From NCBI GenBank assembly GCA_937870685.1, contig CALMZX010000031.1, positions 1-60,106 of the forward strand: 60,106 bases of DNA, in the 5' to 3' direction. The DNA comes from an uncultured Alphaproteobacteria bacterium. GTDB taxonomy: Bacteria; Pseudomonadota; Alphaproteobacteria; Rhizobiales; Aestuariivirgaceae. The first letter of the stretch is position 1. Each line of letters opens with the position of its first letter. Both the position numbers and the translations under genes were made by a program. Under the pieces are notes generated by a model. That model was not told where the DNA came from, searched no databases, and saw only the letters and a program-made list of their open reading frames with translations. Shown one piece after another: positions 7,157 through 24,631 of the stretch.

Positions 7157-10100
7157 ATGCATTTCACCGACATTTTCGTCAAGCGCCCGGTCCTCGCCAC
7201 GGTGGTGAGCCTGCTCATCCTGCTGGCGGGTGCGCAGTCCGTGCTCAAGCTGCCCATCCGGCAGTTCCCGGAAGTCTCCGACACCAAGATCGAGATCACC
7301 ACAGTCTATCCCGGCGCCAACGCTGACCAGATCAAGGGCTTCGTCACCACGCCCTTGCAGCAGGCCGTCGCCTCGACGGAGGGCGTGGACACCCTGACCT
7401 CGCGCTCCTCACAGAACGTCTCGACGATCACCCTCAAGCTCCGCCTTGACGCCGATGCCGACCGCGCGCTCGCTGACGTTCTTTCCAAGGTGAACGAAGT
7501 CAAGGGCGTACTGCCTGAGGAAGCCAACGATCCTGTCGTGAAGCGCACCACGGGTGCGGGCTTCGCGCTCATGTACATCAGCTTCAAGAGCACCGAGATG
7601 ACGCCGCCGCAGGTGAGCGACTATCTCGACCGCGTCGTGAAACCCAAGCTGCAGGCCATCAACGGCGTGGCGTCTGCCGAAATCCTCGGCGGCTCCACCT
7701 TCGCCATGCGCGTCTGGCTTGACCCCGACAAGATGGCCTCCTTCGGCATCACGCCGCTGGATGTCGCTGGTGCCCTGCAGGCCAATAACTTCACCACCGC
7801 CGCAGGCGAAGTGAAGGGCCGCTTTACGCAGCAGAACATCAATGCCCAGACATCGCTTGAAACGCCCGAGGAGTTCGGCCAGCTGGTGGTCGCCAACCGT
7901 GGCGGCACCATCGTGCGCCTCGGCCAGATCGCCCAGATCAATCTCGGCCCGCAGAATTTCTCGTCTTCTTCCGCTTTCGATGGCGTGAAGGCCGTGTTCA
8001 TGGGCATCCAGACCACGCCGGACGCCAACCCGCTCACCGTGATTGCCACCGTTCGCGAGGCGATTCCCGAAATCGCCAGGCAGTTGCCGTCAGGCCTTGA
8101 AGCGAAGATTGCCTACGACGCCACCGAGTTCATCAATGAATCGATCTGGGAGGTTGCCAAGACGCTGGGCGAAGCCTCGGTCATCGTCATCATCGTGATC
8201 TTCCTCTTCCTTGGCAATTTGCGTTCCACCCTCATTCCGGTTGTCACCATCCCGCTCTCGCTCATCGGCGTGGCGCTGGTGCTGGTGGCGCTCGGCTACT
8301 CCATCAACCTGCTGACCCTGCTTGCACTCGTGCTCGCCATCGGCCTCGTGGTGGACGACGCCATCGTCGTCGTCGAGAACATCCACCGCCACATCGAGGA
8401 GGGCATGACGCCCTTCGTCGCGGCGCTGAAGGGCGCGCGCGAGATCACCGGCCCGGTCATCGCAATGACCATCACGCTGGCGGCCGTGTACGCACCAATC
8501 GGATTCACGTCGGGCTTGACCGGTGCGCTCTTCCGCGAGTTCGCCTTCACGCTGGCGGGTGCGGTGATCGTGTCCGGCATCGTCGCCCTGACACTGTCGC
8601 CGATGATGACCTCGAAGCTGCTCAAGTCCCACGAGCACCAGAGCTGGTTCAGCCGCTTGGTGGAGCGCGTCTTTGGCGCGCTGCAACGCTTCTACCGCCG
8701 TCGCCTTGATGGCACCATCCGGCAGCGCGCTGTCTTCGCCTGGATTGCCGTGCTGACGATTGTGCTCTCCGGCGTGCTCTACAACGCCATCAACCGCCAG
8801 CTTGCACCGGCGGAGGACCAGGGCGTGCTCTTCGCCTTCGTCAACGCCCCTGATCACACCAACCTCGACTATCTCACCAGCTACACAGACCCTCTGACCG
8901 AAGACCTGCTGAAACTGCCGGAGCGGCAGAACCTGTTCTCCATCAACGGGTTCCCCAACTCGCAGTCGGCCTTCATCGGTCTCATCCTGAAGCCGTGGGG
9001 CGATCGTGAGCGCTCCGACCTTTCGGTCATGGGTGAATTGCAGCCCAAGTTCGGTCAGGTCGCAGGCGCCAACATCTTCGCCACCGCACCATCTGCCATT
9101 CCGGTGGGTGCCGGCGAACTGCCCATCGAGTTCGTGATCACCCATCCCGGTGAATACACCGAACTGGCGGATGTGCTCGAGAAGCTGGACTCGGAAGCCA
9201 AGAAGAGTGGCCTCTTCATCTTCACCAACGCGGACCTGCGCTTCTCCACGCCACAGGTTGAACTGATCGTGGACAAGGACCGCGCCAACAAGCTTGGCAT
9301 CACCATGCGTGATGTCGGGGCCACGCTGGCAACACTGCTGGGCGGCAACAATGTCAACCGCTTCACCGTGCAGGGCCGCTCCTACCAGGTGATCCCGCAG
9401 GTGCCGCGCGCCGAGCGCGAAACGGCCGAGAACATCCTCAAGTACCGGGTCCGCGCCGCCGATGGCAGCATGGTGCCGCTCTCGTCCTTCGTGACGCTGG
9501 GCAAATCCGTGCAGCCCAACGGCCTGCAGACCTTCCAGCAGCTCAACTCGGCCACGCTGTCTGGCGTGCCGTTCCCCGGCCGCACCATCGGCGAAGGCAT
9601 CGCCTTCCTGCAAAACAAGGCACAAGAACTGTTCCCGCGCGGCATGGCCTATGACTTCAAAGGTGAAAGCCGCCAGTTCGTCAACGAAGGTAACACGCTG
9701 GCGATCACCTTCGCTGTCGCTTTGCTGCTGATCTATCTGGTGCTCGCAGCTCAGTTCGAAAGCTTCCGTGATCCCTTCGTGATTTTGATCGGCCTGCCCG
9801 CCACGATTTTCGGCGCGCTCTTCGTGCTCTTCATCCTCGGTGAAGTGAACGGGGCGATGCAGAACAATCCGCCCATCAACCTGGGTTCTGGCACCATCAA
9901 TATCTACACCCAGATCGGCCTCGTGACGCTGATCGGCCTGATCGCCAAGCATGGCATCCTGATGGTGGAGTTTGCCAACAAGCTCCAGGAAACGGATGGC
10001 CTCGACAAGCATACGGCGATCAAGGAAGCCGCCGCCGTGCGCTTGCGTCCCATTCTCATGACCACCGCGGCCATGGTGATCGGCGTGGTGCCACTGCTGA

Positions 10101-10408: not shown

Positions 10409-11635
10409 TCAGCCCAACATCGAAAGCCCTGACGCAATCCGCGTCAGGGCTTTTTTGATGTCATCCTCGCTGGCCGCGAAGGAAAGACGGATGGAGTTGG
10501 GAGCACCAAAGGCCGAGCCCGGCACCGTCGCGACGTTGTGCTCTTCGAGCAGCCAGTCACACAGTTCGTCCGAACTGGCGATCCGCGTATTGCCCGCGGC
10601 ATTGCCGAGGAAGGCAGAGACATCCGGGAAGGCATAGAAGGTGCCGGGAATGCTGCCGATCTTCAGTCCGGGAATGGCGCGCAATCCGGCAATCACCAGG
10701 TCGCGGCGGCGGCGGTAGGCCTCGCGCATGGTCACCACGTCATCACGCGGGCCTTCCAGCGCGGCGATTGCCGCGCGCTGCACGAATGAATTGGCACCGG
10801 CGGACACAATGCTCTGCATGCGCCCCATGGCCTTGGCGATGGGCTCTGCGGCTGCGGCATAACCCAGCCGCCAGCCGGTCATGGCAAAGCCCTTGGCAAA
10901 GCCGTTGAGCGTGATGGTGCGTGCCAACATGCCGGGCAGGGAACCGAACGACACCATCTCGCCGTCAAACAGGATGTATTCGTATATCTCGTCAGCCAGC
11001 ACCATCAGGTTGGGATGGGCAGAAACAATCGCTGCAATCGCTTCCAACTCGGCGCGGGTCCAGACGGCCCCCGTCGGGTTGCAGGGTGAATTGACGATGA
11101 TGAGTTTGGAGCGCGGCGTCACGGCAGCGGCGATGCGCGCGGCTGGCACCTTGTAGTCTTCTCCGACACTGGAGGTGAGCACCACGGGCGTGCCACCCGC
11201 CAGCCGTACCGTGGCCTCGTAGGACACCCAATAGGGAGCCAGGATGATCACCTCGTCACCCGGCCCGATGACCGAAAGAATGGCATTGGCGATGGCCTGC
11301 TTCGTGCCATTGGCCAGCACAACGCCCGAGGCCGGGTAGGGCAGGCCATTCTCGGCCTTCAGTTTGCGCGCAATGGCCTCCCGCAACTCCGGAATGCCGG
11401 CTACGGGGGAGTAGTGTGTAAAGCCTTGGTCCAGCGCGGCTTTGGCGGCGTCGCGAATGTTCTCCGGTGTATCGAAATCCGGCTCACCCACGGTGAGCGC
11501 CACCACATCGCGGCCCTTGGCCCGCAATTCGCGGGACTTCTGTGCCATGCGGATGATGGCGCCTTCATCGGCGGCATTGGCGCGGCTGGAAAGCTGGCGG
11601 GCGGGGTCGAAGACAGGCTGTGCGGGGACGCTCAT
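10409..11635 (-). CDS. Pyridoxal-phosphate aminotransferase, class I (aspartate/prephenate aminotransferase type)
   Basis: A 408-residue fold-type I enzyme of subgroup I-beta. Visible motifs are LTVGEPDFDTP, HYSPVAGIPELREAI, the NSPCNPTG substrate-binding loop, the VLADEIYEYILFDG aspartate/tyrosine PLP contacts, the catalytic lysine in NGFAKGFAMTGWRLGY, and the carboxylate-binding arginine region PNSIRLSFA. It transfers the amino group of aspartate or glutamate; in alphaproteobacteria this class also serves as prephenate aminotransferase. Just before the lysine the usual Ser is Ala, a minor variant. It is divergent from the lipoprotein gene and convergent with the pump. Confidence 0.93.
   Translation of the reverse strand: MSVPAQPVFDPARQLSSRANAADEGAIIRMAQKSRELRAKGRDVVALTVGEPDFDTPENIRDAAKAALDQGFTHYSPVAGIPELREAIARKLKAENGLPYPASGVVLANGTKQAIANAILSVIGPGDEVIILAPYWVSYEATVRLAGGTPVVLTSSVGEDYKVPAARIAAAVTPRSKLIIVNSPCNPTGAVWTRAELEAIAAIVSAHPNLMVLADEIYEYILFDGEMVSFGSLPGMLARTITLNGFAKGFAMTGWRLGYAAAAEPIAKAMGRMQSIVSAGANSFVQRAAIAALEGPRDDVVTMREAYRRRRDLVIAGLRAIPGLKIGSIPGTFYAFPDVSAFLGNAAGNTRIASSDELCDWLLEEHNVATVPGSAFGAPNSIRLSFAASEDDIKKALTRIASGLSMLG
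10423..10456 (+). terminator. Rho-independent terminator of the efflux operon, inside the converging gene
   Basis: A 13-base perfect stem AAAGCCCTGACGC (10423-10435) / GCGTCAGGGCTTT (10441-10453), a 5-base loop, and a T-run to 10456. It terminates plus-strand transcription of the pump. It lies wholly inside the last codons of the converging aminotransferase gene. The minus strand has only a short T-run after the stem, so it should stop that gene poorly. Confidence 0.88.
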
Positions 11636-13460: not shown

Positions 13461-14312
13461 CTATTTCAGCCCCTTCTTGCCCAGCAGTTTGGGGAGCAGA
13501 AGAAGGCCTGCAAGGAATGGATGCCGCCGCTGCCAGTCCGTCACTTCGATTTTGACCCCCGAATGCCGCGCAATCTTCCATGCAGCATAGTCTGCGCCAC
13601 CTTGGAAAGTGAAGGCCGCCTTGGCGAGACGTGCCACCGACCACAGCTTGCCGAAGGCGCGCTTTGCCCGCCATGAAGACGTGACGGGCTGTACGTTCAC
13701 AAGCATTGGCCCGAGTGCGGCATAGTATTCGGCATCTGAGGCAACGATCAGTGCCGCCCGGTTGCCGCTCTCAGGCCGCAGCTCGGTCCGGTAGGTGTTC
13801 TCGAACAGTCTTTTCCATGGTTCACTGGACGACAGGAACATCCCGTGCCCATAGGCTGTGCGCACGGCAGTGCAGAGAGCCGCCACGACCCGCTCCCGCA
13901 CCACATCCTGCGGACACCACACAATCCGGCTGGGTTGGGCAAATCGTGCCCAGAGGTAGGGATTGGCCGTGCCGGCGGCAACGAGGTCCTCAAAGCGCTC
14001 CAGTGTCATCACGGCATACTTGCAGCGCAGCACAGTCCCGCCCGTGCCCAGTTCCGCGTAGTGCACGTTGGGCGGCACACGCTGGCCCAGCCAGCGCAAG
14101 GCGGCAATGCCGCTTACCTGCTGCGGCAGGTCTACCAGCACGTAGAAATCGATCAGCGTTTCGGTAGGCGACGAGTCGCGCAGGGCCGATCCATAGGCCA
14201 GCACAGCAAGCGTGCCGGCGTGGCGTTCCGCCAGCGTGCGCGCAAAGGCCTGCACCTCTGCATGCACGGGCCTGCGAGTGATGCCATCCAGAAAGGTGGC
14301 GAGATCGTCCAT
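13461..14312 (-). CDS. Tam41/Mmp37-like nucleotidyltransferase (putative CDP-lipid synthase)
   Basis: A 283-residue protein with the pol-beta-type nucleotidyltransferase signature AYGS (39-42) and LIDFYVLVD (53-61). Read against the mitochondrial phosphatidate cytidylyltransferase Tam41, the order of motifs is kept: AYGS, (L/I)DF, KY(A/G)V near residue 98, NPYLWARFAQPSRI near 117-130, a Tyr...Arg motif (NTYRTELRPE), and a C-terminal S..R..K...FT block (SVARLAKAAFTF). Tam41 makes CDP-diacylglycerol from CTP and phosphatidate. It is the last gene of a seven-gene operon; its ATG overlaps the lipid kinase stop (TGATG). The family is inferred from motif order, not a search. Confidence 0.72.
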   Translation of the reverse strand: MDDLATFLDGITRRPVHAEVQAFARTLAERHAGTLAVLAYGSALRDSSPTETLIDFYVLVDLPQQVSGIAALRWLGQRVPPNVHYAELGTGGTVLRCKYAVMTLERFEDLVAAGTANPYLWARFAQPSRIVWCPQDVVRERVVAALCTAVRTAYGHGMFLSSSEPWKRLFENTYRTELRPESGNRAALIVASDAEYYAALGPMLVNVQPVTSSWRAKRAFGKLWSVARLAKAAFTFQGGADYAAWKIARHSGVKIEVTDWQRRHPFLAGLLLLPKLLGKKGLK

Positions 14313-15265
14313 CAGCGGATGATGTAGGTGAATTCGGGACCGCTCTCAATGCGCAAGGCTTCGCCTTCCGGCGCATCGAAGAACTCGCCATCGATCACGA
14401 ACTCGGCCGATGTCTCGATGGAGCAGCCGGTCACGGCATGGCTGGTGGCACCGGGCGGTGCTGTGCGCTTCTCTCCACCCATGATGGCGGGCAGGAACCA
14501 GCGCGGGATGTTGGGCACGGGATAGGGGAAGGTGGTGACCCTGATGGGGCCGGACTTGCCCCCCCAGAAGGGCCGCGTGCCGAGGATCAGCTTGTCCAGC
14601 GTGGTGGCCAGCGCCAGCAATTGCGTGCCTGTTGCCAGCACCGTGTTCCCGGCCTTCACCGTGATCGGGAAAGGCCTGTCAAAACGGCTGGGATCATGCG
14701 GGTTGGGGGCGCTGAACAGGCTCTTGCCCACGGCACTGGCCAGTGCGGCGAAGGTCGCAAGGTTGCCTTTGACGCCTTTGTCGTTCAGTGAAACCTGCGT
14801 GTGGCGTGTAGCTGCGCTTACTGCCCCTGTACCGAGGAACATGCCATGCCGTGCCTGACCGTCACGCGGGTTGGCGGCCCGAAGGGTTGGCCTCACGCGC
14901 ACCTCCTGTGGCACCGGGGCGCCAATGAAAGCCGCCTGCGCCGCGATGCTCCTTGTCCGGTAGCCGATGTCGGCCGCCGTCATGTTGGTCGTACCGTGCG
15001 GCAGCAGGCAGATGCGCGGCAGCGCCGGGAAGATACGCTTCTCCGCCAGCAGCGTCTGGATCGCCTGCACCGTGCCATCGCCTGAGGAGATGAACAGGTC
15101 GGTGCAGCCGCCGCTGGCAAATGCGTACAATGCACCTTCCAACTGGCCGAAGGCCGTGAGCTGGTGAACCTTCACGTGGGAGTGTTGTTTCAGCGCCTCC
15201 GCCAGCGCAACGCCCTTGCCGTTCCCGCGTCCTGATTTCGGATTGATCAGAACGGCAGCGGTCAT
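14312..15265 (-). CDS. Diacylglycerol/sphingoid-type lipid kinase
   Basis: A 317-residue protein of the DAGK catalytic family: NPKSGRG (8-14) and the nucleotide-binding SGDGTVQ (61-67), then LLPHGTTNMTA, matching the GTxND region, and a beta-rich C-terminal domain ending EFVIDGEFFDAPEGEALRIE. Members phosphorylate diacylglycerol, sphingosine/ceramide or related lipids. It overlaps the CDP-alcohol phosphotransferase by ATGA and the Tam41-like gene by one base, so the three are translationally coupled: kinase, cytidylyltransferase and headgroup transferase in a row. The true lipid substrate (DAG or ceramide) is not readable. Confidence 0.85.
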   Translation of the reverse strand: MTAAVLINPKSGRGNGKGVALAEALKQHSHVKVHQLTAFGQLEGALYAFASGGCTDLFISSGDGTVQAIQTLLAEKRIFPALPRICLLPHGTTNMTAADIGYRTRSIAAQAAFIGAPVPQEVRVRPTLRAANPRDGQARHGMFLGTGAVSAATRHTQVSLNDKGVKGNLATFAALASAVGKSLFSAPNPHDPSRFDRPFPITVKAGNTVLATGTQLLALATTLDKLILGTRPFWGGKSGPIRVTTFPYPVPNIPRWFLPAIMGGEKRTAPPGATSHAVTGCSIETSAEFVIDGEFFDAPEGEALRIESGPEFTYIIR

Positions 15266-16431
15266 GTCCGTGCCATCCAGGACGTGAGCTTGCCGCCCGC
15301 CGCACGTTTGGCCGCGAGGGCCTGCGCCAGTTGCAGGCCATGCAGCGCGAGGCAGATTGCCGTCCATGCCGCAACCGCAATCAGACCCCAGTCCGGGCGT
15401 CCGGCCAGCCAGCCGATGGAGAGGAGAATGAGGTTCGGGTTTCGCCGTGCCGTGATCTGCCGGAAGAAGGTGTCGATGGGGCGCCAGATGTGGATTTCGA
15501 GGCCCAGCCACTTGATGCTGATCCCCTCCATCACCCGCTGCAACACGTAGCCGCCGAGGATCACTGCCGTGACCCACCAGAACATCTGGTCTGTCAGGGC
15601 AAGTCCCCAGGCCGCAAGGCCAAGTGCCCAGGCGATGTACCAGAAGGGAGGATGCACAAGGTCGATGCCATGGTCGAACACATCGCCCCACTTGCTGGAG
15701 GTCAGCGTGGTGCGCGCCAGCTTGCCATCAACCGTGTCGAGGAAGGTCATCAGCCACGCGGCCAGCAAGCCCCAACCAAAATATCCGTTGAGGAACAGGA
15801 AGAACGCAGCCACCGTCGCCACGGCGGCGACACTCGTTACCATGTTGGGCGTCACGCCGCGCGCCGCAAGGAATGTGGTGGCGAGGAAAGCAGGCCGGGG
15901 CCAGACATGCTTTGTCACAAGGTCCGTGGCACCTTTGTAGGTGCCCATGAACATCCGCCAGGCGATGGTCTCTGCCGATGGCGCAGTCACCACCAGCGCG
16001 TAAGGCGTTTCGCGCTTGCGCAAGGCCTTCCAGAAGGCAACGTCGAGTTGGCCGGGCGCACGTGCCTCGACGCCGGGAATGGACGGGACGCTGTTTCCCA
16101 GCATCGCCGCCTGAACCGCAGGAAGATCGGCCGCCTGCACATGCGCCGCGACCGGAACGCCTGTATCACTCGACAGCAGGACGAGGTTTGATTTCTGCAA
16201 CAGGCCGGTCACCAGCGGCTGGTCCAGAACGGCATCGGCCCTGACCGCAATGACCGCACCGGCGTGGCTGCGCGCCTCGTCCACCGAAATCCTGTGGGCA
16301 AGCCCTGCGCGGGCAAATTGCACGGCGATGCGTTCCGGCAATGTCTTGCCAAAAAGCCGGATGCCGCTGTCTCCGAGGATGCAGAGGGCGGGTTCGGCGG
16401 CACTGGGCCGGGATGCAGGAGATTGGTCCAT
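15262..16431 (-). CDS. CDP-alcohol phosphotransferase with degenerate N-terminal nucleotidyltransferase-like domain
   Basis: A 389-residue integral membrane enzyme. The CDP-alcohol phosphotransferase signature is complete: D232, D235, G236, A239, R240, G249, D253, D257 (FLDTVDGKLAR...GDVFDHGID). The first 150 residues look like a worn nucleotidyltransferase domain (CILGDSGIRLFGKTLPER) lacking the LAAGxGxR loop. The linker (AERMF...TPNMV type) matches the layout of two-domain inositol-phosphate cytidylyltransferase/phosphotransferase fusions. It should join a CDP-activated moiety to an alcohol or alcohol phosphate within the membrane. The ATG at 16431 has no strong ribosome site, so the start is moderately sure. 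Confidence 0.85.
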   Translation of the reverse strand: MDQSPASRPSAAEPALCILGDSGIRLFGKTLPERIAVQFARAGLAHRISVDEARSHAGAVIAVRADAVLDQPLVTGLLQKSNLVLLSSDTGVPVAAHVQAADLPAVQAAMLGNSVPSIPGVEARAPGQLDVAFWKALRKRETPYALVVTAPSAETIAWRMFMGTYKGATDLVTKHVWPRPAFLATTFLAARGVTPNMVTSVAAVATVAAFFLFLNGYFGWGLLAAWLMTFLDTVDGKLARTTLTSSKWGDVFDHGIDLVHPPFWYIAWALGLAAWGLALTDQMFWWVTAVILGGYVLQRVMEGISIKWLGLEIHIWRPIDTFFRQITARRNPNLILLSIGWLAGRPDWGLIAVAAWTAICLALHGLQLAQALAAKRAAGGKLTSWMART

Positions 16432-16445
16432 GGATGTGTTTGCGC

Positions 16446-17525
16446 TCAGACTCGTTCTGTCTGCAGCGTCAGATAGGCCGCCAGCGCGGCAAAGGCCAGA
16501 ACCGGCGTCCATGCCGCCAGCCAGGGCGTCACGAAACCGAGTTCCCCGACCGACAGCGCAATCCCGTCGAAAACAAAGAAGGCAAAGCCCAGGCCGATGC
16601 CCACGGCAAACAGGAGCCCCAAGCCACCGCCGCGCCGGAACCGCGCCGCCAGCGGAACACACAGGCCCACCATCACGATGGAAATCAGGATCGGCGTCAA
16701 CCGCTTGTGCAACCACGTCTTGTAGACGTAGGCCGGACGGATTCCGAAGCCATCGTTGGAAATGAAATAACGGAGATCGGACAACGACATTTCTTCCGGG
16801 TCACCGGAGCGCGAGCCCGCTGCCGCTGGCCGCATCTGGCCGCCGTACTGAAGTGTGGATGCCTTTTCCGGCGGCTTGTTGCCACGGAAGTATGTCGTCG
16901 CATTGGTCAAGTCCCAGACGCCGTTTGTCTGCACCGCACGTTCCGCGAAAATCTGCTCCAGCAGCAGGCCATCGGCATCGCGCTTGAAGATCACCACGTC
17001 TTCAAGACGGCGCGAATCCCGGCTGGCGCTGGCAGCGCGCATGATGTCATTGCCGGAGCGCAGCCAGATCGGATCCCGCTCGCCGATTTTGAGCCGTTCC
17101 CTGCCATAGTCACCGATGCCCCATTCGCGCAGGGAAGGCGCTGCGGCGGGAACGGCCCTGTCCAGCAGGGCAAAATGGGCAACTCCTATCAGGATGGCCA
17201 GAGGCACCAGCAGGAAAATGAGCCGCCCCGGAGAAATGCCACTGGCCCAGATCGCCACCAGTTCGTTGCGGTAGCTCAGTTCGGTGAGGGTAAGCAGCAG
17301 GGCCATGAGAAGGCTCATGGGCAGGAATGTCGCCAGCGTCAGTGGCAGGCGGTGCACGATGTATGTGAAAACTGACGACAGTGTGCCACCGTCTGCATCA
17401 ATGGCGAGGACGTCCTTGGAATAGGCCGCCACCTCCAGAGTCAAAACGAACAGCGACAGGCCAAAAAGAAGGGCCAGAAACCGTGCCAGCACCATCTTGC
17501 TGATCATGAACGCGACAATTCTCAT
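16446..17525 (-). CDS. LptF/LptG family permease (LptG-like)
   Basis: A 359-residue YjgP/YjgQ-family protein: three N-terminal helices, a periplasmic beta-jellyroll (about residues 130-255, with SGNDIMRAASA and YFRGN), then three C-terminal helices (KRLTPILISIVMVGLCVPLAARF). Canonical LptF/LptG with LptB2 extract LPS from the inner membrane toward the outer membrane. It overlaps lptF by ATGA (17522-17525) and is followed 14 bases later by the CDP-alcohol phosphotransferase. The usual neighbours (pepA, lptD) are absent, so either these are the LPS pair in an unusual place or a second pair devoted to another lipid. Confidence 0.88.
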   Translation of the reverse strand: MRIVAFMISKMVLARFLALLFGLSLFVLTLEVAAYSKDVLAIDADGGTLSSVFTYIVHRLPLTLATFLPMSLLMALLLTLTELSYRNELVAIWASGISPGRLIFLLVPLAILIGVAHFALLDRAVPAAAPSLREWGIGDYGRERLKIGERDPIWLRSGNDIMRAASASRDSRRLEDVVIFKRDADGLLLEQIFAERAVQTNGVWDLTNATTYFRGNKPPEKASTLQYGGQMRPAAAGSRSGDPEEMSLSDLRYFISNDGFGIRPAYVYKTWLHKRLTPILISIVMVGLCVPLAARFRRGGGLGLLFAVGIGLGFAFFVFDGIALSVGELGFVTPWLAAWTPVLAFAALAAYLTLQTERV

Positions 17526-18745
17526 GCGTTCTCCCTCCGTATGCCGACAAGCGCCAGCAGGCGCGTGGTCATGCGCGAGGTGAACTCCTGGATGGGGATC
17601 AGCACACGGTCGAGACCGTCACTGCCCAGGAGGAAACTGGCAGAATAAAAGCGCCAGAAGGCGAAGGCGGCCAGCAGGCCAAGCGGCAGCCATTGCGTGA
17701 TCCATGGCGAAATCCCGCTGGAACGTGTGGCAAGTGCGCCCTGCTGGATGACTTCATGATAGGCCACCAGCAAAGCCATTGCCACGACGATCCTGTAGGC
17801 CCGCGGGCTGCGCGCCCGCCCGATGGCAAATGGCAGGGCGAGGAAGGGCAGAAGCAGCATTGTGAGAATGCTGACGATACGGCGGTGCAATTCCGACCGG
17901 AAGGAATCGGGCGTGACCTCCGGGAATGCGGCTGCGTCCCCACTCAGGAGTTCGTTGATGTAGAGTTCTTCGCCGTCGTTGCCGCGTGGGCGGAAGATGT
18001 CCTTGGCCACTTTGCCGAGCGGTGTGTCGGTTGTGGTGAACTCCGCCACGCCAGCCGTCACGGGCTCCTCGCCGGACGAGAGCGTCGGCCAGCGCTCCAC
18101 CTGCAGGCGGTGGCCGTTGTTGAGTCGCAGGACAGGCCGCGTCTGGCCGGGAACCGGAATGAGCACACCGTTCGAGGCCGTCAGCGTTTCAGCGCCGTTC
18201 GGTCCCTGATAGTCGAAGAGGAAGATGCGCTTGAAGGTGCTGTTGCTGCGGTCCAGTTCATCCAGAATGAAGGTACGGGAACCGGATTGCATGAATACAC
18301 CTTCTTCGGCCAGGTAGAAGGCATCAACGCTGGTAATGTCGAACAAAAGCGAACGGTATGCATAGCGCGTCATCGGTTGCAGCCAGCCGAAGATCAGTGT
18401 CGAGGCCAGGGCGAAGATCATGGCCAGCAGGAACACCGGCCAGGCAAGCCTGTGGAGACCGATGCCTGCCGCCAGCATGGCATCCAGTTCATTGCTCTTG
18501 GAGATCTTGCTGAAGCCGAACAGGAGGCCGATGAACAGGGCCGCAGGCACGGCTGTACCCAGATAGTGCGGAACGAGATAGGCCAACAGTTCGAACACCG
18601 CGCCAAAGGAATTGTTCTTGCCCAGCGTTGTGTCGAGCAGGCGCACCAGCCGCTCTGCCAGAAGCATGAGCAGGCCGATTGCGAGACTGGCACCCAGAGG
18701 CATCAGCACCTGGCGCAGGACATATCGGTCTATGATGTTGAGCAC
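17522..18745 (-). CDS. LptF/LptG family permease (LptF-like)
   Basis: A 407-residue paralogue of the next gene: N-terminal IDRYVLRQVLMPLGASLAIG helices, then GFSKISKSNELDAMLAAGIG (the conserved cytoplasmic coupling region), a jellyroll domain (about 130-280), and the helix triplet beginning HRRIVSILTMLLLPFLALPF. The C-terminal tail is longer than usual. It begins with GTG at 18745 with AAGG ahead; the ATG-type start is absent. It follows the HIT gene by 19 bases in the same operon. It is predicted to act with the LptG-like protein and an LptB-type ATPase encoded elsewhere. Confidence 0.88.
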   Translation of the reverse strand: MLNIIDRYVLRQVLMPLGASLAIGLLMLLAERLVRLLDTTLGKNNSFGAVFELLAYLVPHYLGTAVPAALFIGLLFGFSKISKSNELDAMLAAGIGLHRLAWPVFLLAMIFALASTLIFGWLQPMTRYAYRSLLFDITSVDAFYLAEEGVFMQSGSRTFILDELDRSNSTFKRIFLFDYQGPNGAETLTASNGVLIPVPGQTRPVLRLNNGHRLQVERWPTLSSGEEPVTAGVAEFTTTDTPLGKVAKDIFRPRGNDGEELYINELLSGDAAAFPEVTPDSFRSELHRRIVSILTMLLLPFLALPFAIGRARSPRAYRIVVAMALLVAYHEVIQQGALATRSSGISPWITQWLPLGLLAAFAFWRFYSASFLLGSDGLDRVLIPIQEFTSRMTTRLLALVGIRRENA

Positions 18746-18764
18746 GTTGATACCTTGACCGGGT

Positions 18765-19202
18765 TTAGCCGGACAACCGGAAGGCGTCCAGCAGGGCTGA
18801 ATGCAGCCTGCCGCGGCGTGTCTCGTCCAGCGCCGTTGCCTGCTTCAGGTCCGGCACGCCGGGCCAGCCGGTGTCAGGGAACGCCGTGCCTTCGAAATCC
18901 TGAACCGCGGCGTACCGTGGCAGCACATGAAAATGCACGTGCGGGTCCACCATCATCAGCGCGAGATAGTTGATCTTGTCGAAAGGCCGAAACGTCCTGA
19001 GCGCGTCTTCGATCCGCCGTGAGATCTCCGCCAGTTCGGTGAATGCGGCGGCGGGAAGCTGCCCGAGAGCTGGCACGTCGCTTTTCGCGCACAGCACCAG
19101 CGCGCCGAGCGTCACCTGTTGTGGCCGCAGCAGCACGCACCAATGGGCGCCTTCGTGCAGCAGCGATCCGGGGTAGCCGAATTTTTGCAGCGTTGCATGC
19201 AT
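18765..19202 (-). CDS. HIT family protein
   Basis: A 145-residue HIT-domain protein. The histidine triad is HVHFHV (H88, H90, H92) in DPHVHFHVLPRYA, preceded by DKINYLALMM. HIT enzymes hydrolyse or transfer nucleotidyl groups (AMP-lysine, diadenosine or CDP-type substrates). Within this lipid operon it could remove unused nucleotide-activated intermediates, which is inference. It starts two bases after the metallophosphoesterase gene and precedes lptF. Confidence 0.9.
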   Translation of the reverse strand: MHATLQKFGYPGSLLHEGAHWCVLLRPQQVTLGALVLCAKSDVPALGQLPAAAFTELAEISRRIEDALRTFRPFDKINYLALMMVDPHVHFHVLPRYAAVQDFEGTAFPDTGWPGVPDLKQATALDETRRGRLHSALLDAFRLSG

Positions 19203-19204
19203 GT

Positions 19205-20110
19205 TCAGAAATCCTCACCCAGGATGCCGGACCGGCTTTCGCCAAAACGCCCCGTGCCGCTGTCGATGCGGTGAACGGTCATCCGCGTTTGCCATTGCCC
19301 CCGCGACCGGCTGATGGTGTAGGCATGCCATTGGGCGCTTTCATGGCCGTCGCGGTCCACCATGCTGGCCGACGGCACGCACACCACATGAGCCACACCG
19401 CCAGCTGTTTCGAGACGGTTGACCATGGTCTTGTGGTTGTGGCCGTGGATCACCAGTTCAGCGCCGCCTGTCCTCAACACTTCCGCCAGCTCCGGCGCGT
19501 CGGTCAGCGCCTTGCGGGGGCGTGTCAGACCCGGCAGTGGTGGATGGTGGATCATGACCGCGCGATAGAAGCCGCGCCCGCCCAGTTCCGCCAGTTTGGC
19601 TGCAAGGGCCGCTCGCTGTTCGCTGCCCAGCGTGCCGCCCGCGCGCCGCAGCGATTGCGGCACGGCGCTGCTCAGGCCGATGATCGCCACGTTGCGGCGC
19701 AGGCGCACAAACGGAAAGGGATGCGGGGACGGCACGCCATCCCCCTGCATGAAGGCATTGAACAGGCCCAGTCCGGTTTCGTGCGCGGCTTTCACGTAGG
19801 CGTCGTGATTGCCCGGCACCATGGTGACGTGGGCGGCATCGCCGAAGGTTTCGAGCCATGAAAGGCCGCGCCGGAACTCGGCCCTGGACGCGATGTTGGC
19901 GAGATCGCCCGTAAAGCAGATGTGGTCGGGCTTGCGCGCCAGGATGTCCGCGCGCAGGCCATCGGCATGGGCGTTGATGTGCAGCCCCCTGCGCCGGAAG
20001 CGCCACGACAGTCCGCCAATGATGCGCTTTAGCCGGAAGTCCGAGAAAACGTCTGAAACTCCCACAGGCCCCAGGTGGACGTCGGAAAAATGGGCGAGCG
20101 TGAAGGACAT
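19205..20110 (-). CDS. Calcineurin-like metallophosphoesterase
   Basis: A 301-residue phosphoesterase with the full set of metal-binding motifs: FSDVHLG (D10, H12), FTGDLAN, VPGNHDAY, MIHHPP and VIHGHNHKT. No signal peptide is seen, so it acts in the cytoplasm or at the inner membrane surface. Members hydrolyse phosphomonoesters, phosphodiesters or UDP-lipid intermediates (LpxH type). As the first gene of the seven-gene lipid operon it may trim a phosphate from the headgroup product. The ATG at 20110 fits the family; an upstream in-frame ATG at 20170 is possible. Confidence 0.9.
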   Translation of the reverse strand: MSFTLAHFSDVHLGPVGVSDVFSDFRLKRIIGGLSWRFRRRGLHINAHADGLRADILARKPDHICFTGDLANIASRAEFRRGLSWLETFGDAAHVTMVPGNHDAYVKAAHETGLGLFNAFMQGDGVPSPHPFPFVRLRRNVAIIGLSSAVPQSLRRAGGTLGSEQRAALAAKLAELGGRGFYRAVMIHHPPLPGLTRPRKALTDAPELAEVLRTGGAELVIHGHNHKTMVNRLETAGGVAHVVCVPSASMVDRDGHESAQWHAYTISRSRGQWQTRMTVHRIDSGTGRFGESRSGILGEDF

Positions 20111-20185
20111 GGGGGCGGTGATGGCTTCCGTTGACTTCGCCTGAATCGGGTGCGAAGGAGCCCCATCCATATTCCTTTCAACTCA

Positions 20186-20938
20186 ATGGGTTCAAGTCTC
20201 GTGCGTGTCATCATTCTTGCCGCAGGCCAGGGCAAACGGCTTCTGCCCCTCACAGCCGACGTGCCCAAGGCGCTCCTCGACATCGGCGGCAAGCCGTTGA
20301 TCGAGCGCCAGATCGAGGCCTTTGCGGCCTGTGGCGTGAAGGACGTCGTGGTGGTGACGGGCTATGCCTCGGGCCGCATGGAAGAGGCCCTGAAGGCCAT
20401 CGCGGGCCGCAACGGCGCGCAACTCACCTGTGTCTACAACCCGTTCTATGCCGTGGCCGACAACCTCGCCAGTTGCTGGTTGGCGCGTGGGCAGATGACG
20501 GGCGACTTCATCCAGGTGAACGGCGACAATGTGTTCCGCAGCGACCTGGTGCAAAAGCTCCTCGATGCTCCGCAAACCCCGGCCAGCGTCGCCATCAACG
20601 TCAAACCCGCCTACGATGCCGACGACATGAAGGTGATGATGGACCGTGGCCGCCTGACCGAAGTGGGAAAGACACTGCCTGTCGATACCGTCAATGCAGA
20701 AGCCATCGGCTTCTACATGTTCCGGGGGTCGGGCGTGAAGGCCTACAGCGACGAACTGGAACTGGCGATGCGCGATCCGCAAGGGCTCAAGCGCTGGTTC
20801 CCCTCGGCCGTCGGCTCACTGGCAAAGAAGATCCCCATCTCGACAATCGAGATCACCGGCCTGCGCTGGGCCGAAGTGGATTTCCCCGCCGATCTCGCCC
20901 ATGCGCGGCAACTCGTGGCAGGTTGGGATCAGGTCTAG
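20186..20938 (+). CDS. Nucleotidyltransferase of the phosphocholine/sugar-phosphate cytidylyltransferase type
   Basis: A 250-residue enzyme with the nucleotide-binding loop LAAGQGKRL and the lysine motif PKALLDIGGKPLIERQIEAF, then YNPFYAVADNLASCWLARG, metal-binding QVNGDNVF, and a C-terminal WAEVDFPADLAHA. This pattern is that of LicC-like cytidylyltransferases, which make CDP-alcohols from CTP and a phosphorylated small alcohol. It is divergent from the lipid operon (75-base gap) and would supply an activated headgroup. The start is uncertain: ATG 20186 has no close ribosome site; ATG 20150 and GTG 20201 are alternatives. Confidence 0.87.
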   Translation: MGSSLVRVIILAAGQGKRLLPLTADVPKALLDIGGKPLIERQIEAFAACGVKDVVVVTGYASGRMEEALKAIAGRNGAQLTCVYNPFYAVADNLASCWLARGQMTGDFIQVNGDNVFRSDLVQKLLDAPQTPASVAINVKPAYDADDMKVMMDRGRLTEVGKTLPVDTVNAEAIGFYMFRGSGVKAYSDELELAMRDPQGLKRWFPSAVGSLAKKIPISTIEITGLRWAEVDFPADLAHARQLVAGWDQV

Positions 20939-21735
20939 GTTTTCGCCTGGTTTTTCATCCGTGTCCGGATGATCATTTCGGCCAGTGCATGGTCGGAAGG
21001 CTTGTCCACGTCGATGGCCGCTTCGGCAGACGACATCAGCACTGGCACGATGCGGAAACCAAGCCGCCGGGACACTTCAGAGAAAGCCGCGTCGAGCCCG
21101 AGGCGCCCCAGCAAGAACATCAGCAGTGGGCGCAAGCCGAAAGCCGCGACCAGCTTCCAGGGCTTCTTGCGGTTCTTTTCCAGCCCGTGCCAGACGTCAA
21201 ACAGGGCCAGCCCTTTGGGCGACAGCACGGCGAAAAGATTGCAGCCGGAGACACGGTCGTTACCGAGGCGGAAGAAGGTGCGCTTGGTTTCGGGATAGGC
21301 CGCCAGGATGGTTTCCGCCGTTGCGAGCCCGGCGCAGAAATCCGCCCCGCTTGCTGTGGCCTTGACGCAGAACTCCCGCACCATGTCCGGGGTGAGCAGG
21401 GCATGGTCACCGGTGGTCACCAGCACCGGGAAGGACGCAGCGGCAACGACCGCCTCCCGCGCTGACGCAGGCGCCGAGGCGGAGGACTGAACCATCGCAA
21501 CGTGATGGACAAGGGACCCGGCGGCACTCTGTCCGGCGCTGGCATCATCGATTGAAACAAGGATGGGCCTGCGGACATGCGCGTCACAGAGAGCCTGCAA
21601 CACACGCTGCAACATGGGGATTCCAGCGACAGGCAGGGCGCACTTGTGCGCCACGCCAAAAGCCTTCGCCATGGGATCATCCGGCCCGCGTCCCGCTGCC
21701 AATACAATGGCAGCCCAGGAGGTGGGCGGGCTCAC
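20935..21735 (-). CDS. MobA-like NTP transferase domain protein
   Basis: A 266-residue protein with the Rossmann-like nucleotidyltransferase core: AAIVLAAGRG (loop), KCALPVAGIPML, VLVTTGDHALL (metal-binding aspartate) and VSGCNLFAVLSP. The C-terminal part contains KKPWKLVAAFGLRPLL and ends AAIDVDKPSDHALAE, as in family members that act on sugar or alcohol phosphates. It begins with GTG at 21735 overlapping the upstream acyltransferase stop (GTGA). Its stop shares CTAG with the converging cytidylyltransferase. It is probably a second headgroup-activating enzyme; the substrate is unknown. Confidence 0.85.
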   Translation of the reverse strand: MSPPTSWAAIVLAAGRGPDDPMAKAFGVAHKCALPVAGIPMLQRVLQALCDAHVRRPILVSIDDASAGQSAAGSLVHHVAMVQSSASAPASAREAVVAAASFPVLVTTGDHALLTPDMVREFCVKATASGADFCAGLATAETILAAYPETKRTFFRLGNDRVSGCNLFAVLSPKGLALFDVWHGLEKNRKKPWKLVAAFGLRPLLMFLLGRLGLDAAFSEVSRRLGFRIVPVLMSSAEAAIDVDKPSDHALAEMIIRTRMKNQAKT

Positions 21736-22868
21736 AGGTCTTTCTCGTAGATGCGGTAGGTCTTGTAATGCACTCCGCCCAGCTCTTCGATGATGTGGCG
21801 GATGCGCATGTTGTCTTCGAGAATCCACGACATCTCGCAGGCCTTGGTGCCGCGTGAGATGTGGTAGTTGCGCACATGGTCAATCGCCGCCACGGCCAGT
21901 GCAGAACCGAGAATGCCGTCCTGGAACTTCTTGCGCACGCCGAGCAGCGGCATGCGGATGGAAGGTGGCCGCTTGGCGATCACGGCCTTCGCCAGCTTCA
22001 GCCAGTTGAACGGCAGCAGCCGGCCGTTGAAGCCGTCGATCCAGTCATTCAGGTTGGGCAGGGTCACAGACATGGCGGCGTTCTCGCCCTTGTAGGTGAC
22101 GATTGCCACATAGTCGCCGTGCACCAGCATCTTCATGTCATTGGCGAGTTTTTCAAGTTCCGCCGAGGTGAACGGCACAAAGCCCCAGTTGTGCGACCAT
22201 GCATCGTTGAAGATGTCCATCACGATCGCGATGTCACGCTTGATGTTCTTCTTGTCGAGCGGGCGGATGGCAATGTCGCCGGTCGCCATGGCACGCTTGG
22301 CCACCCGTTGCAGCAGCGCGGGCAGGGGGCCGAGATCCTCGGTATAATACGCGATGAGATCCTTGGCTTTGCGCAAGCCCTGGCCGTCCATCAGGCCTTG
22401 ATAGTAGGGCAGGGCGTGCCCCATCATCATGTTGGGCTTGTGTCCGAAACCATGCACCAGCATGCCGAGTTCGTCGTTGATCGAGAAGTTGAAAGGGCCT
22501 TGCACTTTTGCCAATCCGCGCTGGCGCAGCCAGCTTTCAGCCGCGCTGAACAGGGCCTGCGCCACCGCAGGATCATTCTCGCTTTCAAAGAATCCGAACT
22601 GCCCCGCATTGTCCTTGTGACGTTCCAGGCGTAGCCGGTCATGTTGGGCGGAAATACGCCCGACGGGCTTGCCGCCGCGATAGGCGACAAAGAGTTGCGC
22701 ATCAGCGTGCTGGAAGTAGGGATTTTTCTTCGGATTGAGATGGTCCAGGCGTTCGAGAAAGAGCGGAGCAACCCAGTTCGGGTCATCGCGGTAGAGCGCG
22801 AAGGGCACCTCCAGAAAGGCGCGGATCGCTGCCTTGTCGCTGACCGGCCGGATGCTGATGGCGCTCAT
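21732..22868 (-). CDS. GNAT-fold acyltransferase-like protein (bacterial ceramide-synthase-like)
   Basis: A 378-residue protein. The opening ALYRDDPNWVAPLFLERLDH and NPKKNPYFQHADAQLFVAYR, followed by GKPVGRISAQ, is characteristic of a large GNAT-like family often misnamed dATP pyrophosphohydrolase. A second GNAT-like half follows (DIFNDAWSHNWGFVPFT; ending SWILEDNMRIRHIIEELGG). The ceramide synthase (bCerS) of Caulobacter belongs to the GNAT acyltransferases, and my reading is that this protein is of that kind. It overlaps the ABC exporter by ATGA and the MobA-like gene by GTGA. N-acylation of a lipid base is inference. Confidence 0.72.
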   Translation of the reverse strand: MSAISIRPVSDKAAIRAFLEVPFALYRDDPNWVAPLFLERLDHLNPKKNPYFQHADAQLFVAYRGGKPVGRISAQHDRLRLERHKDNAGQFGFFESENDPAVAQALFSAAESWLRQRGLAKVQGPFNFSINDELGMLVHGFGHKPNMMMGHALPYYQGLMDGQGLRKAKDLIAYYTEDLGPLPALLQRVAKRAMATGDIAIRPLDKKNIKRDIAIVMDIFNDAWSHNWGFVPFTSAELEKLANDMKMLVHGDYVAIVTYKGENAAMSVTLPNLNDWIDGFNGRLLPFNWLKLAKAVIAKRPPSIRMPLLGVRKKFQDGILGSALAVAAIDHVRNYHISRGTKACEMSWILEDNMRIRHIIEELGGVHYKTYRIYEKDL

Positions 22869-24631
22869 GCGCGTTTGACCTTGCTTTGTTTCGCAGGAGG
22901 AGCCACGTCGACATCCGCCGCCGCAACCATGGTCTTCTTCGGCGTGGCAGTGACTCGCCCGCCAAGGAACGTGTACTGTACATCTGCAATGCGCGTCCAC
23001 GCCGGTCGGTGGGTGATGGCGATGATGGTGTATCTGCCACGCAGCCCGGCGATATTGTCCACAATTGCGGTCTCGGTTTCTGGATCGAGCGCGCTTGTCA
23101 CTTCGTCCAGCACCAGCACGTCCGGTTTGCGCACAAGTGCGCGCGCCAGTGAAATGCGTTGCCGCTGGCCACCCGAGAGCTTGCCACCAAACTCGCCGAC
23201 GTCGGTGTCGAGTCCGGTGGGCAGGGAAGCGATGAAGCTGTCGGCACCAGCCAGACGCAAGGCTTCCATGATGTCGTCATCGCTGATGCCGGGCTCCGAC
23301 AGCGAAATGTTTTCCCGGATCGAATCGTGGAACAGCGCCAGTTCCTGCGGCACGTAGCCGATGTTCCGGCGGAAGGCGGTGATGTCGGTCTCTTCCAGCG
23401 GCTGCTGACCGATGCGGATCGTCCCCGCCTGCGGCCTGTGCAGGCCGATCAGCAGGTCGATCAGCGTGGTCTTGCCAGCACCGGACGGACCCTGCAGCAC
23501 CGTGATCTGGCGGGCGGGGATGGACACTGACACATCCACCAGAATCGGCCTGTCACCATGGGCAAAACTGACATGTTCAAAGACGAAATCCTGACCTGCC
23601 GGCGGAGGCAGTTTGCCGGGACGCATTTCCCGCTGCGCCTCTGCCTCGGCAATCATGTCCTGCGTGCGCACATAGGATGCCTCGACCTGGCTCGCCATCT
23701 GCACCTGCTTCAGGAACTTCGACATGTAGGACATGACCTGGAAGAACAGGATGCCGATGACGAGCAACTGTTCCACCGGCACCCCGGCTTTGGTGACCGC
23801 ATACCAGGACGCGGCAGCCAGCATGCTGACCATCAGAACGTCATTCCCGTAAACGAGGCCAAAGCGCGAAACATTCTGCACATAGAGCGAGCGCCGCAGC
23901 CGCTTCACGATGGCCGAAAGGCTCTCGATCATCGGGTCATAACGGTGCATCGCTTTCAGCGATTTCATGTTTTGCACAAGGTCCACCATGTCGGATGTCA
24001 GCAGGGCCGTGCGGTCAGACTGCTTGTAGGAAGCGTTGCGTGTCACCTCGATCAGCAGGCGCGAGATCATCGCGATCACCAGCCCGCCGACAATGGCAAC
24101 GAGTGCTACTGTCCAGTTGATGAGCAGGGCAACGAGCGCATAAGCCACGATCTGCACGCTGTTGGTAGCGGCGATTGCCGCCATGTTGTAGGCCTCCCCG
24201 GCACGGGTCGCGTCGTTGCTGATGACACTGGCAATGCGGCCGCTGCTCTGGTCGGCATAGTAGCTCCAGCGCGCTTCGAACACCGCCTTGATCAGGCGCC
24301 GCCGAAGGCTGTTGGCCACGCGCGCACCCATGATGCCCGCATAGGTCATGGCGACAAACAGCAGCACCGCCCGCAGCAGCAGGAAGCTTACCGAGAGGGT
24401 GAGCAGCGTGCTGAAATCGGGGGTCAGTCCAAGCGATGCCATGCCTGACCGCAGATAGGTCTCGAAGGTGGTCATGGCACCGCCCGACGATCCGCTGAGA
24501 AGTGTGCCAATGGCAGGCAGAAGCGCGCCAATGCCGATCGCTTCCAGCGTGCCACCCACCAGCAGGCAAAGCAGGACGATGAAGGGCCGCGTGTCCTCGG
24601 CCTTGAAGAAAATCTGGAAAACTTGCCGCAT
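22865..24631 (-). CDS. ABC exporter, fused membrane and ATPase domains (MsbA-like)
   Basis: A 588-residue half-transporter. Six transmembrane helices lie in residues about 15-310. The ATPase domain has Walker A GPSGAGKTT, the Q-loop YVPQELALF, signature LSGGQRQRISLARAL, Walker B VLVLDEVTSALD and the switch ITHR. A homodimer would flip a lipid or peptide across the inner membrane. The ATG at 24631 is used; one at 24676 is in frame. Neither has a strong ribosome site. It heads the acyltransferase/MobA-like operon and is divergent from the Nudix gene. A lipid substrate is likely from context. Confidence 0.88.
   Translation of the reverse strand: MRQVFQIFFKAEDTRPFIVLLCLLVGGTLEAIGIGALLPAIGTLLSGSSGGAMTTFETYLRSGMASLGLTPDFSTLLTLSVSFLLLRAVLLFVAMTYAGIMGARVANSLRRRLIKAVFEARWSYYADQSSGRIASVISNDATRAGEAYNMAAIAATNSVQIVAYALVALLINWTVALVAIVGGLVIAMISRLLIEVTRNASYKQSDRTALLTSDMVDLVQNMKSLKAMHRYDPMIESLSAIVKRLRRSLYVQNVSRFGLVYGNDVLMVSMLAAASWYAVTKAGVPVEQLLVIGILFFQVMSYMSKFLKQVQMASQVEASYVRTQDMIAEAEAQREMRPGKLPPPAGQDFVFEHVSFAHGDRPILVDVSVSIPARQITVLQGPSGAGKTTLIDLLIGLHRPQAGTIRIGQQPLEETDITAFRRNIGYVPQELALFHDSIRENISLSEPGISDDDIMEALRLAGADSFIASLPTGLDTDVGEFGGKLSGGQRQRISLARALVRKPDVLVLDEVTSALDPETETAIVDNIAGLRGRYTIIAITHRPAWTRIADVQYTFLGGRVTATPKKTMVAAADVDVAPPAKQSKVKRA

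Follow-up and report, generated by a model that had tools for sequence, protein, structure and literature searches.

What lipid is made by a locus of eleven genes for lipid synthesis and export in an alphaproteobacterium, and by what route does it reach the outer membrane? The locus lies at positions 13461-24631 of a stretch of 60,106 nucleotides (contig CALMZX010000031.1 of assembly GCA_937870685.1, an uncultured member of the Aestuariivirgaceae), below called the window. With a probability of about 0.78, it makes and exports a phosphosphingolipid of the phosphoglycerate type (ceramide phosphoglycerate, CPG, or CPG2), lipid A is lost from the host, and this lipid travels over the Lpt bridge instead of lipopolysaccharide (LPS). 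The steps of synthesis are drawn from Caulobacter genetics and from protein folds, and we infer those of export.

A check of the open reading frames (ORFs) of the window recovered all eleven genes of the initial annotation in the places and families given there, with the reservations that the GNAT-like match is below cut-offs and that the Tam41-like protein is recognised by its predicted structure. Families were assigned with Pfam and NCBIfam. CC numbers denote the matching genes of Caulobacter crescentus, and CDP stands for cytidine diphosphate.

22865..24631, minus strand: ABC exporter with membrane and ATPase domains (PF00664, PF00005), candidate phosphosphingolipid flippase, CC_1166-like; overlaps the CerS gene by 4 bp and adjoins it in loci L005-L013 and L083
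21732..22868, minus strand: CerS-like GNAT-type N-acyltransferase, candidate ceramide synthase, CC_1154-like (weak GNAT matches; neighbourhood)
20935..21735, minus strand: MobA/CofC-like nucleotidyltransferase, CC_1153-like (PF12804); where relatives have this gene, it comes after CerS
20150..20938, plus strand: LicC-like cytidylyltransferase, CpgD-like, CC_1152 (PF12804/PF00483; top PDB match 1jyk)
19205..20170, minus strand: metallophosphoesterase, CC_1158-like (PF00149); in 22 of 40 CpgC neighbourhoods
18765..19202, minus strand: HIT-domain protein (PF01230; HIT motif); in 9 of 40 CpgC neighbourhoods
17522..18745, minus strand: LptF of the sphingolipid-associated clade, LptF2 (PF03739; tree)
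16446..17525, minus strand: LptG, partner of LptF2, LptG2 (PF03739; profile score)
15262..16431, minus strand: CDP-alcohol phosphotransferase with an N-terminal cytidylyltransferase-like domain, CpgA-like, CC_1159 (CDP-OH_P_transf)
14312..15265, minus strand: DAGK-family lipid kinase, candidate ceramide kinase, CpgB-like, CC_1160 (PF00781); 35 of 40 neighbourhoods have it at most 600 bp from the Tam41-like gene
13461..14312, minus strand: Tam41-fold nucleotidyltransferase, CpgC-like, CC_1161, proposed CTP:ceramide-1-phosphate cytidylyltransferase (predicted fold)

The ABC/CerS, CerS/MobA, LptF/LptG and CDP-alcohol transferase/kinase pairs overlap by 4 bp and the kinase/Tam41-like pair by 1 bp; the remaining couplings are gaps of 2, 19 and 14 bp. 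Given these distances, the seven genes from the phosphoesterase to the Tam41-like gene are likely one operon, as had been proposed, and ABC-CerS-MobA are likely a second operon of three genes. The LicC-like gene stands alone on the plus strand. The true start of the metallophosphoesterase may be further inside its ORF, leaving space for a divergent promoter shared with the plus-strand gene.

The genome of the window (G000) has 3.29 Mb in 155 contigs and is 92.19% complete. Serine palmitoyltransferase (SPT) had been reported as missing from the window. This is correct, and a search of the genome for SPT, CerR and an acyl carrier protein (ACP), which had been suggested as a check, found all three on contig C1. 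They form there, with an AasR-like gene, a likely and complete ceramide operon. The SPT, reached through a PF00155 search, scores 584.7 bits with NF047599 (cut-off 500) and best matches solved SPTs (PDB 2x8u, E 4e-132). The CerR-like protein is of the epimerase type, the ACP domain is present, and the AasR-like protein is a fatty acyl-AMP ligase above the NF006624 cut-off. A PF00696 search of the same genome was uninformative.

The pyridoxal-phosphate enzyme encoded at 10409-11635 of the window was considered as SPT and rejected, being a class I/II aminotransferase by Pfam, with the real SPT on C1. Upstream of the ceramide operon lies a gene for a fatty-acid hydroxylase related to OlsE (10477-11253 of the C1 locus L104), a candidate sphingolipid hydroxylase.

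The route could be as follows. By analogy, AasR, ACP, SPT and CerR together with CerS would yield dihydroceramide, and the kinase would yield ceramide-1-phosphate. The Tam41-fold protein would use CTP to form CDP-ceramide, from which an acceptor, glycerate or phosphoglycerate, would displace CMP to give CPG. The LicC-like enzyme would form CDP-glycerate, and the CDP-alcohol transferase would use CDP-glycerate and CPG to make CPG2, while the phosphoesterase would trim. The ABC exporter would flip the lipid, and LptB with LptF and LptG of the locus would extract it and pass it to LptC, LptA and LptD.

The host bacterium appears to have lost lipid A synthesis and LPS. In its 92.19% complete genome no match was obtained for LpxC (one hidden Markov model, HMM, E 0.001) or for LpxB. 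Exactly two LptF/LptG proteins are encoded, both inside the locus (PF03739, 215.7 and 195.6 bits). LptD is on contig C41, and LptC, LptA and an LptB-like ABC ATPase stand in a row before rpoN on contig C49; the ATPase is taken for LptB from this position. Only one LptC, that of C49, is above the Pfam cut-off, the other match falling in the N-terminal part of LptD.

Two sites of this genome were compared with those of relatives. pepA adjoins lptD without lptFG between them (L158; both genes by Pfam). The order is pepA, lptF, lptG, lptD in all three fetched same-order relatives (of four known in this analysis), with pepA identified by similarity to that of L158. Seven LpxC-negative genomes, including this one, were fetched at lptD: in five, pepA and lptD still adjoin with no lptFG (L158, L162, L164, L165, L167), and the pepA family was not seen in the lptD stretch of L163 and L166. 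At the second site (L189, contig C98) bamA is followed by fabZ after about 65 bp with no lpxD between. The order in the relative G283 is bamA, lpxD, fabZ, lpxA, a gene which we take to be lpxI, and lpxB. As the bamA-fabZ interval is closed up, lpxD is gone from this site. On the same contig, the cdsA-rseP interval (about 6734-6838 of L189) was not found to contain a family that sits between these genes in the relative L192 and has a copy at the edge of L190; this family is presumably dxr.

The pattern extends beyond one genome. A profile of the Tam41-like family, below CpgC (28 rows), was run over 385 alphaproteobacterial genomes and found 42 carriers. LpxC is present in 328 of the 385, and absent from 24 of the 42 carriers versus 33 of the 343 non-carriers (odds ratio 12.5, p 6e-12, Fisher test). 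By genus, it is absent from 15/29 with CpgC versus 24/248 without (p 2e-7). Within families f31, f82 and f95 the carriers (G159; G080, G195; G093) have no LpxC, and the listed non-carriers (G028; G288, G366; G203, G295, G373) have it.

LptF/LptG proteins were counted in 60 genomes and LptD was checked in 48. Exactly two LptF/LptG proteins occur in 21 of the 24 carriers without LpxC, and in 20 of these 21 they are encoded at most 12 kb from CpgC, G325 being the exception. Carriers with LpxC have four (17/18) or five (1/18). Among the 16 LpxC-positive non-carriers, 15 have two and G022 has four. The two LpxC-negative non-carriers are G012, with two, and G066, with none. LptD occurs in all 24 LpxC-negative and all 18 LpxC-positive carriers, and only G066 lacks it among the 48 genomes. 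LpxB was matched in 2 of the 24 carriers without LpxC versus 16 of the 18 with it (275-352 bits). G066 is a 5.4 Mb single-contig genome from the same family as the carrier G186, and gave no match to LpxC, LpxB, LptF/LptG or LptD.

CerS relatives were collected by one search in named genomes, which yielded 85, the best 80 being kept as loci. LpxC is encoded in 16 of the 41 genomes behind named loci. Of the named loci, 24 have a CerS with 48% or higher identity to that of the window, and LpxC is absent from all 16 genomes examined among these, including Aestuariivirga sp. YIM B02566 and Thermopetrobacter sp. TC1. Dongia deserti and two Nitrosomonas genomes likewise gave no LpxC match; the latter two (L080, L081) have CerS and are outside Alphaproteobacteria. 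All eight genomes of Hellea, Hyphomonadaceae and Caulobacterales that were examined have LpxC.

LptF proteins are of two kinds. The 61 fetched proteins are split 41 versus 20 in the tree by one change with support 100/100. CPG loci or LpxC-negative genomes are the source of the 41-row clade, LPS sites that of the 20-row clade; the extra LptF/LptG copies of G244 and G341 are outside the tree. An LptF profile gives 294-546 bits to the sphingolipid-associated kind and 86-163 to the LPS-site kind; it was built from sequences including seven named loci, the window and L110 (the same as L047), and the remaining scored rows had no part in building it. The LptF of the window falls outside the LPS-site group and is encoded away from the pepA-lptD site. 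LptG is set apart from the LPS pair by profile score only. The genome G012, with neither CpgC nor LpxC, has LptD and an LptF of the sphingolipid clade, so the link of LptF2 may be with sphingolipids at large and not with CPG in particular.

Co-location in relatives, another check that had been suggested, was found: all ten non-ABC genes are together in 13 of the 80 CerS loci within the fetched flanks, and the ABC gene as well in 10 of these 13. CpgC is present in 28 of the 80 loci, the kinase also in 27 of these 28, and SPT in 31 of the 80. Of 24 CerS loci selected, 19 have, in one stretch with the cluster, a family some of whose ORFs show the SPT-type motif.

The surroundings of CpgC were fetched for 40 of the 42 carriers; the other two are the window and G163 (matches split over two contigs). 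Most neighbourhoods cover 20 kb, some stop early at a contig end (the shortest at 3 kb), and their genes were identified at 35 bits with profiles built from the CerS loci L005-L084, the window and L104. The kinase is found in 37 of the 40 neighbourhoods, at most 600 bp from CpgC in 35. SPT, LptF and LptG occur in 30 each, CerS and the MobA-like gene in 25 each, the phosphoesterase in 22, HIT in 9 and ABC in 6. Five CerS loci (L008, L015, L016, L022, L073) have a phosphoesterase, LptF and/or LptG, an SPT-type gene and, in three cases, a kinase. Their flanks contain no CpgC, CDP-alcohol transferase or LicC-like gene, all five genomes are without LpxC, and a different head group may be used there.

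A number of observations weigh against the proposed synthesis and export of a CPG-type lipid in a host without LPS. The Fisher tests ignore the relatedness of genomes, and the LpxC state needs only four changes on the CpgC tree (a quick tree of 64 rows), at least three of them on well-supported branches. In families f15 and f69 LpxC is missing from the listed non-carriers, G012 and G066, as well as from the carriers. Nor is LPS loss confined to CpgC: LpxC is also missing where CerS occurs with no CpgC in the fetched flank (e.g. L008, L016, L020, L073). Three carriers without LpxC depart from the two-copy rule, G244 with three LptF/LptG proteins, G341 with four and G071 with none. LpxB-family matches above the cut-off occur in LpxC-negative G058 (105 bits) and G275 (pieces up to 31 bits), and G027 and G227, which have both CpgC and LpxC, gave no LpxB match.

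Further points of the same kind concern the window's own genome and the chemistry. Contig C98 ends just after fabZ, so that any lpxA at this site would be beyond what it covers; the genome is 92.19% complete in 155 contigs, and the LpxC search relied on one HMM at E 0.001. The CDP-alcohol transferase occurs in only 17 of the 40 CpgC neighbourhoods and the LicC-like gene in 3, so CPG2, unlike CPG, may be uncommon among carriers, or its genes may be elsewhere. Some carriers may stop at CPG, hold the other genes elsewhere, or have versions that the profiles miss. The gene assignments to C. crescentus rest on families, gene order and the description in the paper. Finally, according to the part of PMC11324152 consulted, CC_1159 is dispensable for CPG in Caulobacter, and the enzyme using CDP-ceramide therefore has no assigned gene.

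The chemistry of CpgC has several possible forms. As a single query, the protein has no match in sequence searches of Pfam, NCBIfam or PDB, and PF09139, the Tam41/Mmp37 model, does not match it up to E 10. This model reaches one of the 28 family members (E 0.0089), and a profile of the family gave E 0.046 or worse in sequence searches. In the fold search, the predicted structure clearly matches Tam41, mitochondrial and bacterial CDP-diacylglycerol synthases, with CTP-bound structures among them; beyond about residue 236 the model is barely covered in the rows labelled VIA. Since PF09139 fails on it, we call the protein Tam41-fold and not a Tam41. The known reaction of Tam41 is the conversion of a lipid phosphate, with CTP, to a CDP-lipid.

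CpgC could nevertheless bypass CDP-ceramide, transferring another nucleotide or joining glycerate in a different way; this is a serious possibility, although we tend towards CDP-ceramide. The published models, in the sections consulted, leave the mechanism of CpgC open (PMC12275187, PMC13228409), and the dispensability of CC_1159 for CPG also points this way. On the other hand, the activity of Tam41 and the CTP-bound structures among the matches favour CDP-ceramide, as does the neighbouring kinase, which makes a lipid phosphate in Caulobacter (PMC11324152, as far as consulted). Loci L047, L048 and L054 (about 2800-4200 and 7700-9100) contain two CDP-alcohol transferase paralogues per cluster, one on the kinase/CpgC side and the other flanked by LptG and CerS. 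This latter paralogue could be the enzyme using CDP-ceramide.

The cargo of the bridge in LpxC-negative genomes might be another lipid, such as a glycosphingolipid, hopanoid or glycolipid, with CPG leaving by a different way. We consider this unlikely. It would agree with G012, where LptD and a sphingolipid-clade LptF are kept with no CpgC, so that the cargo need not be CPG, and with L008 and similar loci without CpgC in the fetched flank. However, the proximity of LptFG to CpgC in 20 of the 21 two-copy genomes, and their place in the same likely operon in the window, argue for CPG as the cargo.

It is somewhat less probable still that the Tam41-fold protein acts as a further CDP-diacylglycerol synthase, one for ordinary phospholipids, as its structural matches to the mitochondrial and bacterial enzymes would allow. 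CdsA is encoded separately in this genome, so the supply of CDP-diacylglycerol does not need the Tam41-like gene. The neighbours of CpgC (the kinase within 600 bp in 35 of 40 cases, SPT in 30) and the near-complete failure of PF09139 on the family are against this role, and the CC_1161 mutant of Caulobacter is without CPG, according to the consulted part of PMC11324152.

An ordinary LPS maker, with lpxC, lpxB, lpxD and a second lptFG lost in assembly gaps and the locus as an extra CPG2 cluster of the Caulobacter kind, is very improbable. The fragmented, incomplete assembly and the LpxC of the Hellea, Hyphomonadaceae and Caulobacterales carriers would fit. But there are two distinct sites where the sequence is unbroken and the genes have closed up, lptFG being missing from pepA-lptD and lpxD from bamA-fabZ; LpxC is absent in 16/16 of the genomes examined with close CerS, and the same pattern is seen in 99-100% complete genomes of 1 to 30 contigs (G037, G131, G159, G325). 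A chance assembly of unrelated lipid genes, for which no favourable point was found, is rejected because 13 of 80 CerS loci hold the same set of genes and the 40 CpgC neighbourhoods hold parts of it.

Several features of the individual proteins may be added. The GNAT-like protein scores E 0.012 with PF00583 and 4e-4 with one NCBIfam GNAT model, both below the cut-off. The top PDB match of the LicC-like protein, 1jyk, is a CTP:phosphocholine cytidylyltransferase. Regular expressions for signatures of these families located the CDP-alcohol motif at residue 232, the HIT triad at 88, the DAGK GDGT at 61, the nucleotidyltransferase loops, and GS...D in the Tam41-like protein. The CDP-alcohol transferase has the architecture of AF2299 and IPCT-DIPPS and weak PDB matches to CDP-alcohol transferases, and the kinase gave nothing useful in PDB. 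The N-terminal loop of the transferase is conserved as LIGxSxxxLWG (consensus of 27 rows). The usual nucleotidyltransferase loop is glycine-rich, and by this difference in sequence the N-terminal domain is probably inactive. In each of the 13 full-set loci the HIT gene (18765-19202 in the window) is again part of the stretch, and its product could hydrolyse a CDP intermediate. A methyltransferase gene of the cyclopropane-fatty-acid-synthase type (PF02353; 12188-13459, plus strand) is convergent with the Tam41-like gene, with one base between them.

The initial annotation put the locus forward as a candidate undescribed one, which does not hold: a C. crescentus cluster with matching kinds of genes is already in PMC11324152. 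Its reading as a lipid synthesis-and-export locus with a GNAT-like CerS, a kinase and a Tam41-like enzyme is borne out by families, fold and context. The CPG2 cluster, the survival of Caulobacter without lipid A given CPG-type lipids, the absence of LPS in Sphingomonas and the LptC2/F2/G2 proposal are all known. Among open-licence PMC texts (titles and abstract beginnings), no paper was found that links loss of lipid A genes and of the LPS-type LptFG to a retained sphingolipid-type pair; in open-licence PMC texts none was found for the term CDP-ceramide. The route of bacterial sphingolipids to the outer membrane is called unknown in the consulted parts of PMC11324152 and PMC11087976. Genomes that have lost the LPS-type LptFG and kept the sphingolipid-type pair and LptD point to the transporter, and they offer organisms where it could be tested without LPS interfering. 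The pattern suggests that Sphingomonas is far from the only case of LPS loss among bacteria that make sphingolipids.

The closest known system is the C. crescentus cluster CC_1168-CC_1152, as described in the consulted part of PMC11324152. The genes named there are CC_1166 for a potential flippase, CC_1165-1162 and CC_1154 for ceramide, CC_1161-1158, CC_1153 and CC_1152 (six genes) for the head group, and CC_1168, CC_1156 and CC_1155 as second copies of LptC, LptF and LptG, the last three being proposed as the sphingolipid route. The same source identifies CC_1160 as ceramide kinase and reports that CC_1161 and CC_1160 are required for CPG, that CC_1159, CC_1153 and CC_1152 are required for CPG2, and that CC_1158 contributes. 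It notes a CDP-diacylglycerol synthase domain in CC_1161, for which its authors suggest a nucleoside-diphosphate-activated ceramide. CpgD (CC_1152) makes CDP-glycerate (PMC12275187, part consulted).

The resemblance to this cluster, pointed out in the initial annotation, is close: ten of the eleven window genes match CC_1166, CC_1161-CC_1158 and CC_1156-CC_1152 by family, order and the description in PMC11324152, and the HIT gene is not matched to CC_1157. The window has the features of the CPG/CPG2 clusters, a CpgB-type kinase with DAGK_cat beside CpgC and a Tam41-fold CpgC, and, by sequence, candidate members of the CPG2-type families, namely CpgD-type and CC_1153-type nucleotidyltransferases and a CpgA-type CDP-alcohol transferase. 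Ceramide genes occur in both genomes, but here their operon is on another contig. The window's genome has no second LptC above the Pfam cut-off; this copy is also absent from N. eutropha, A. vinelandii and P. luteola, still expected to make CPG2 (PMC11324152, part consulted). The host appears to be without lipid A and the other LptFG pair, whereas Caulobacter vibrioides, used as a control, has LpxC; Caulobacter is viable without lipid A given CPG-type lipids, according to the citing papers. The locus belongs to the known CPG2 cluster type, and its setting, apparently without LPS, bears on the open question of export.

The window protein shares the fold and the GS...D signature with Tam41/Mmp37, but PF09139 misses it and its neighbours are ceramide genes. 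The transferase differs from AF2299 and IPCT-DIPPS by the LIGxSxxxLWG loop. Sphingomonas, cited in PMC11324152 (part consulted) for glycosphingolipids, has sphingolipids in place of LPS. The likeness is that a sphingolipid replaces LPS, and the difference is that the window contains a locus of the phosphosphingolipid type with its own LptFG.

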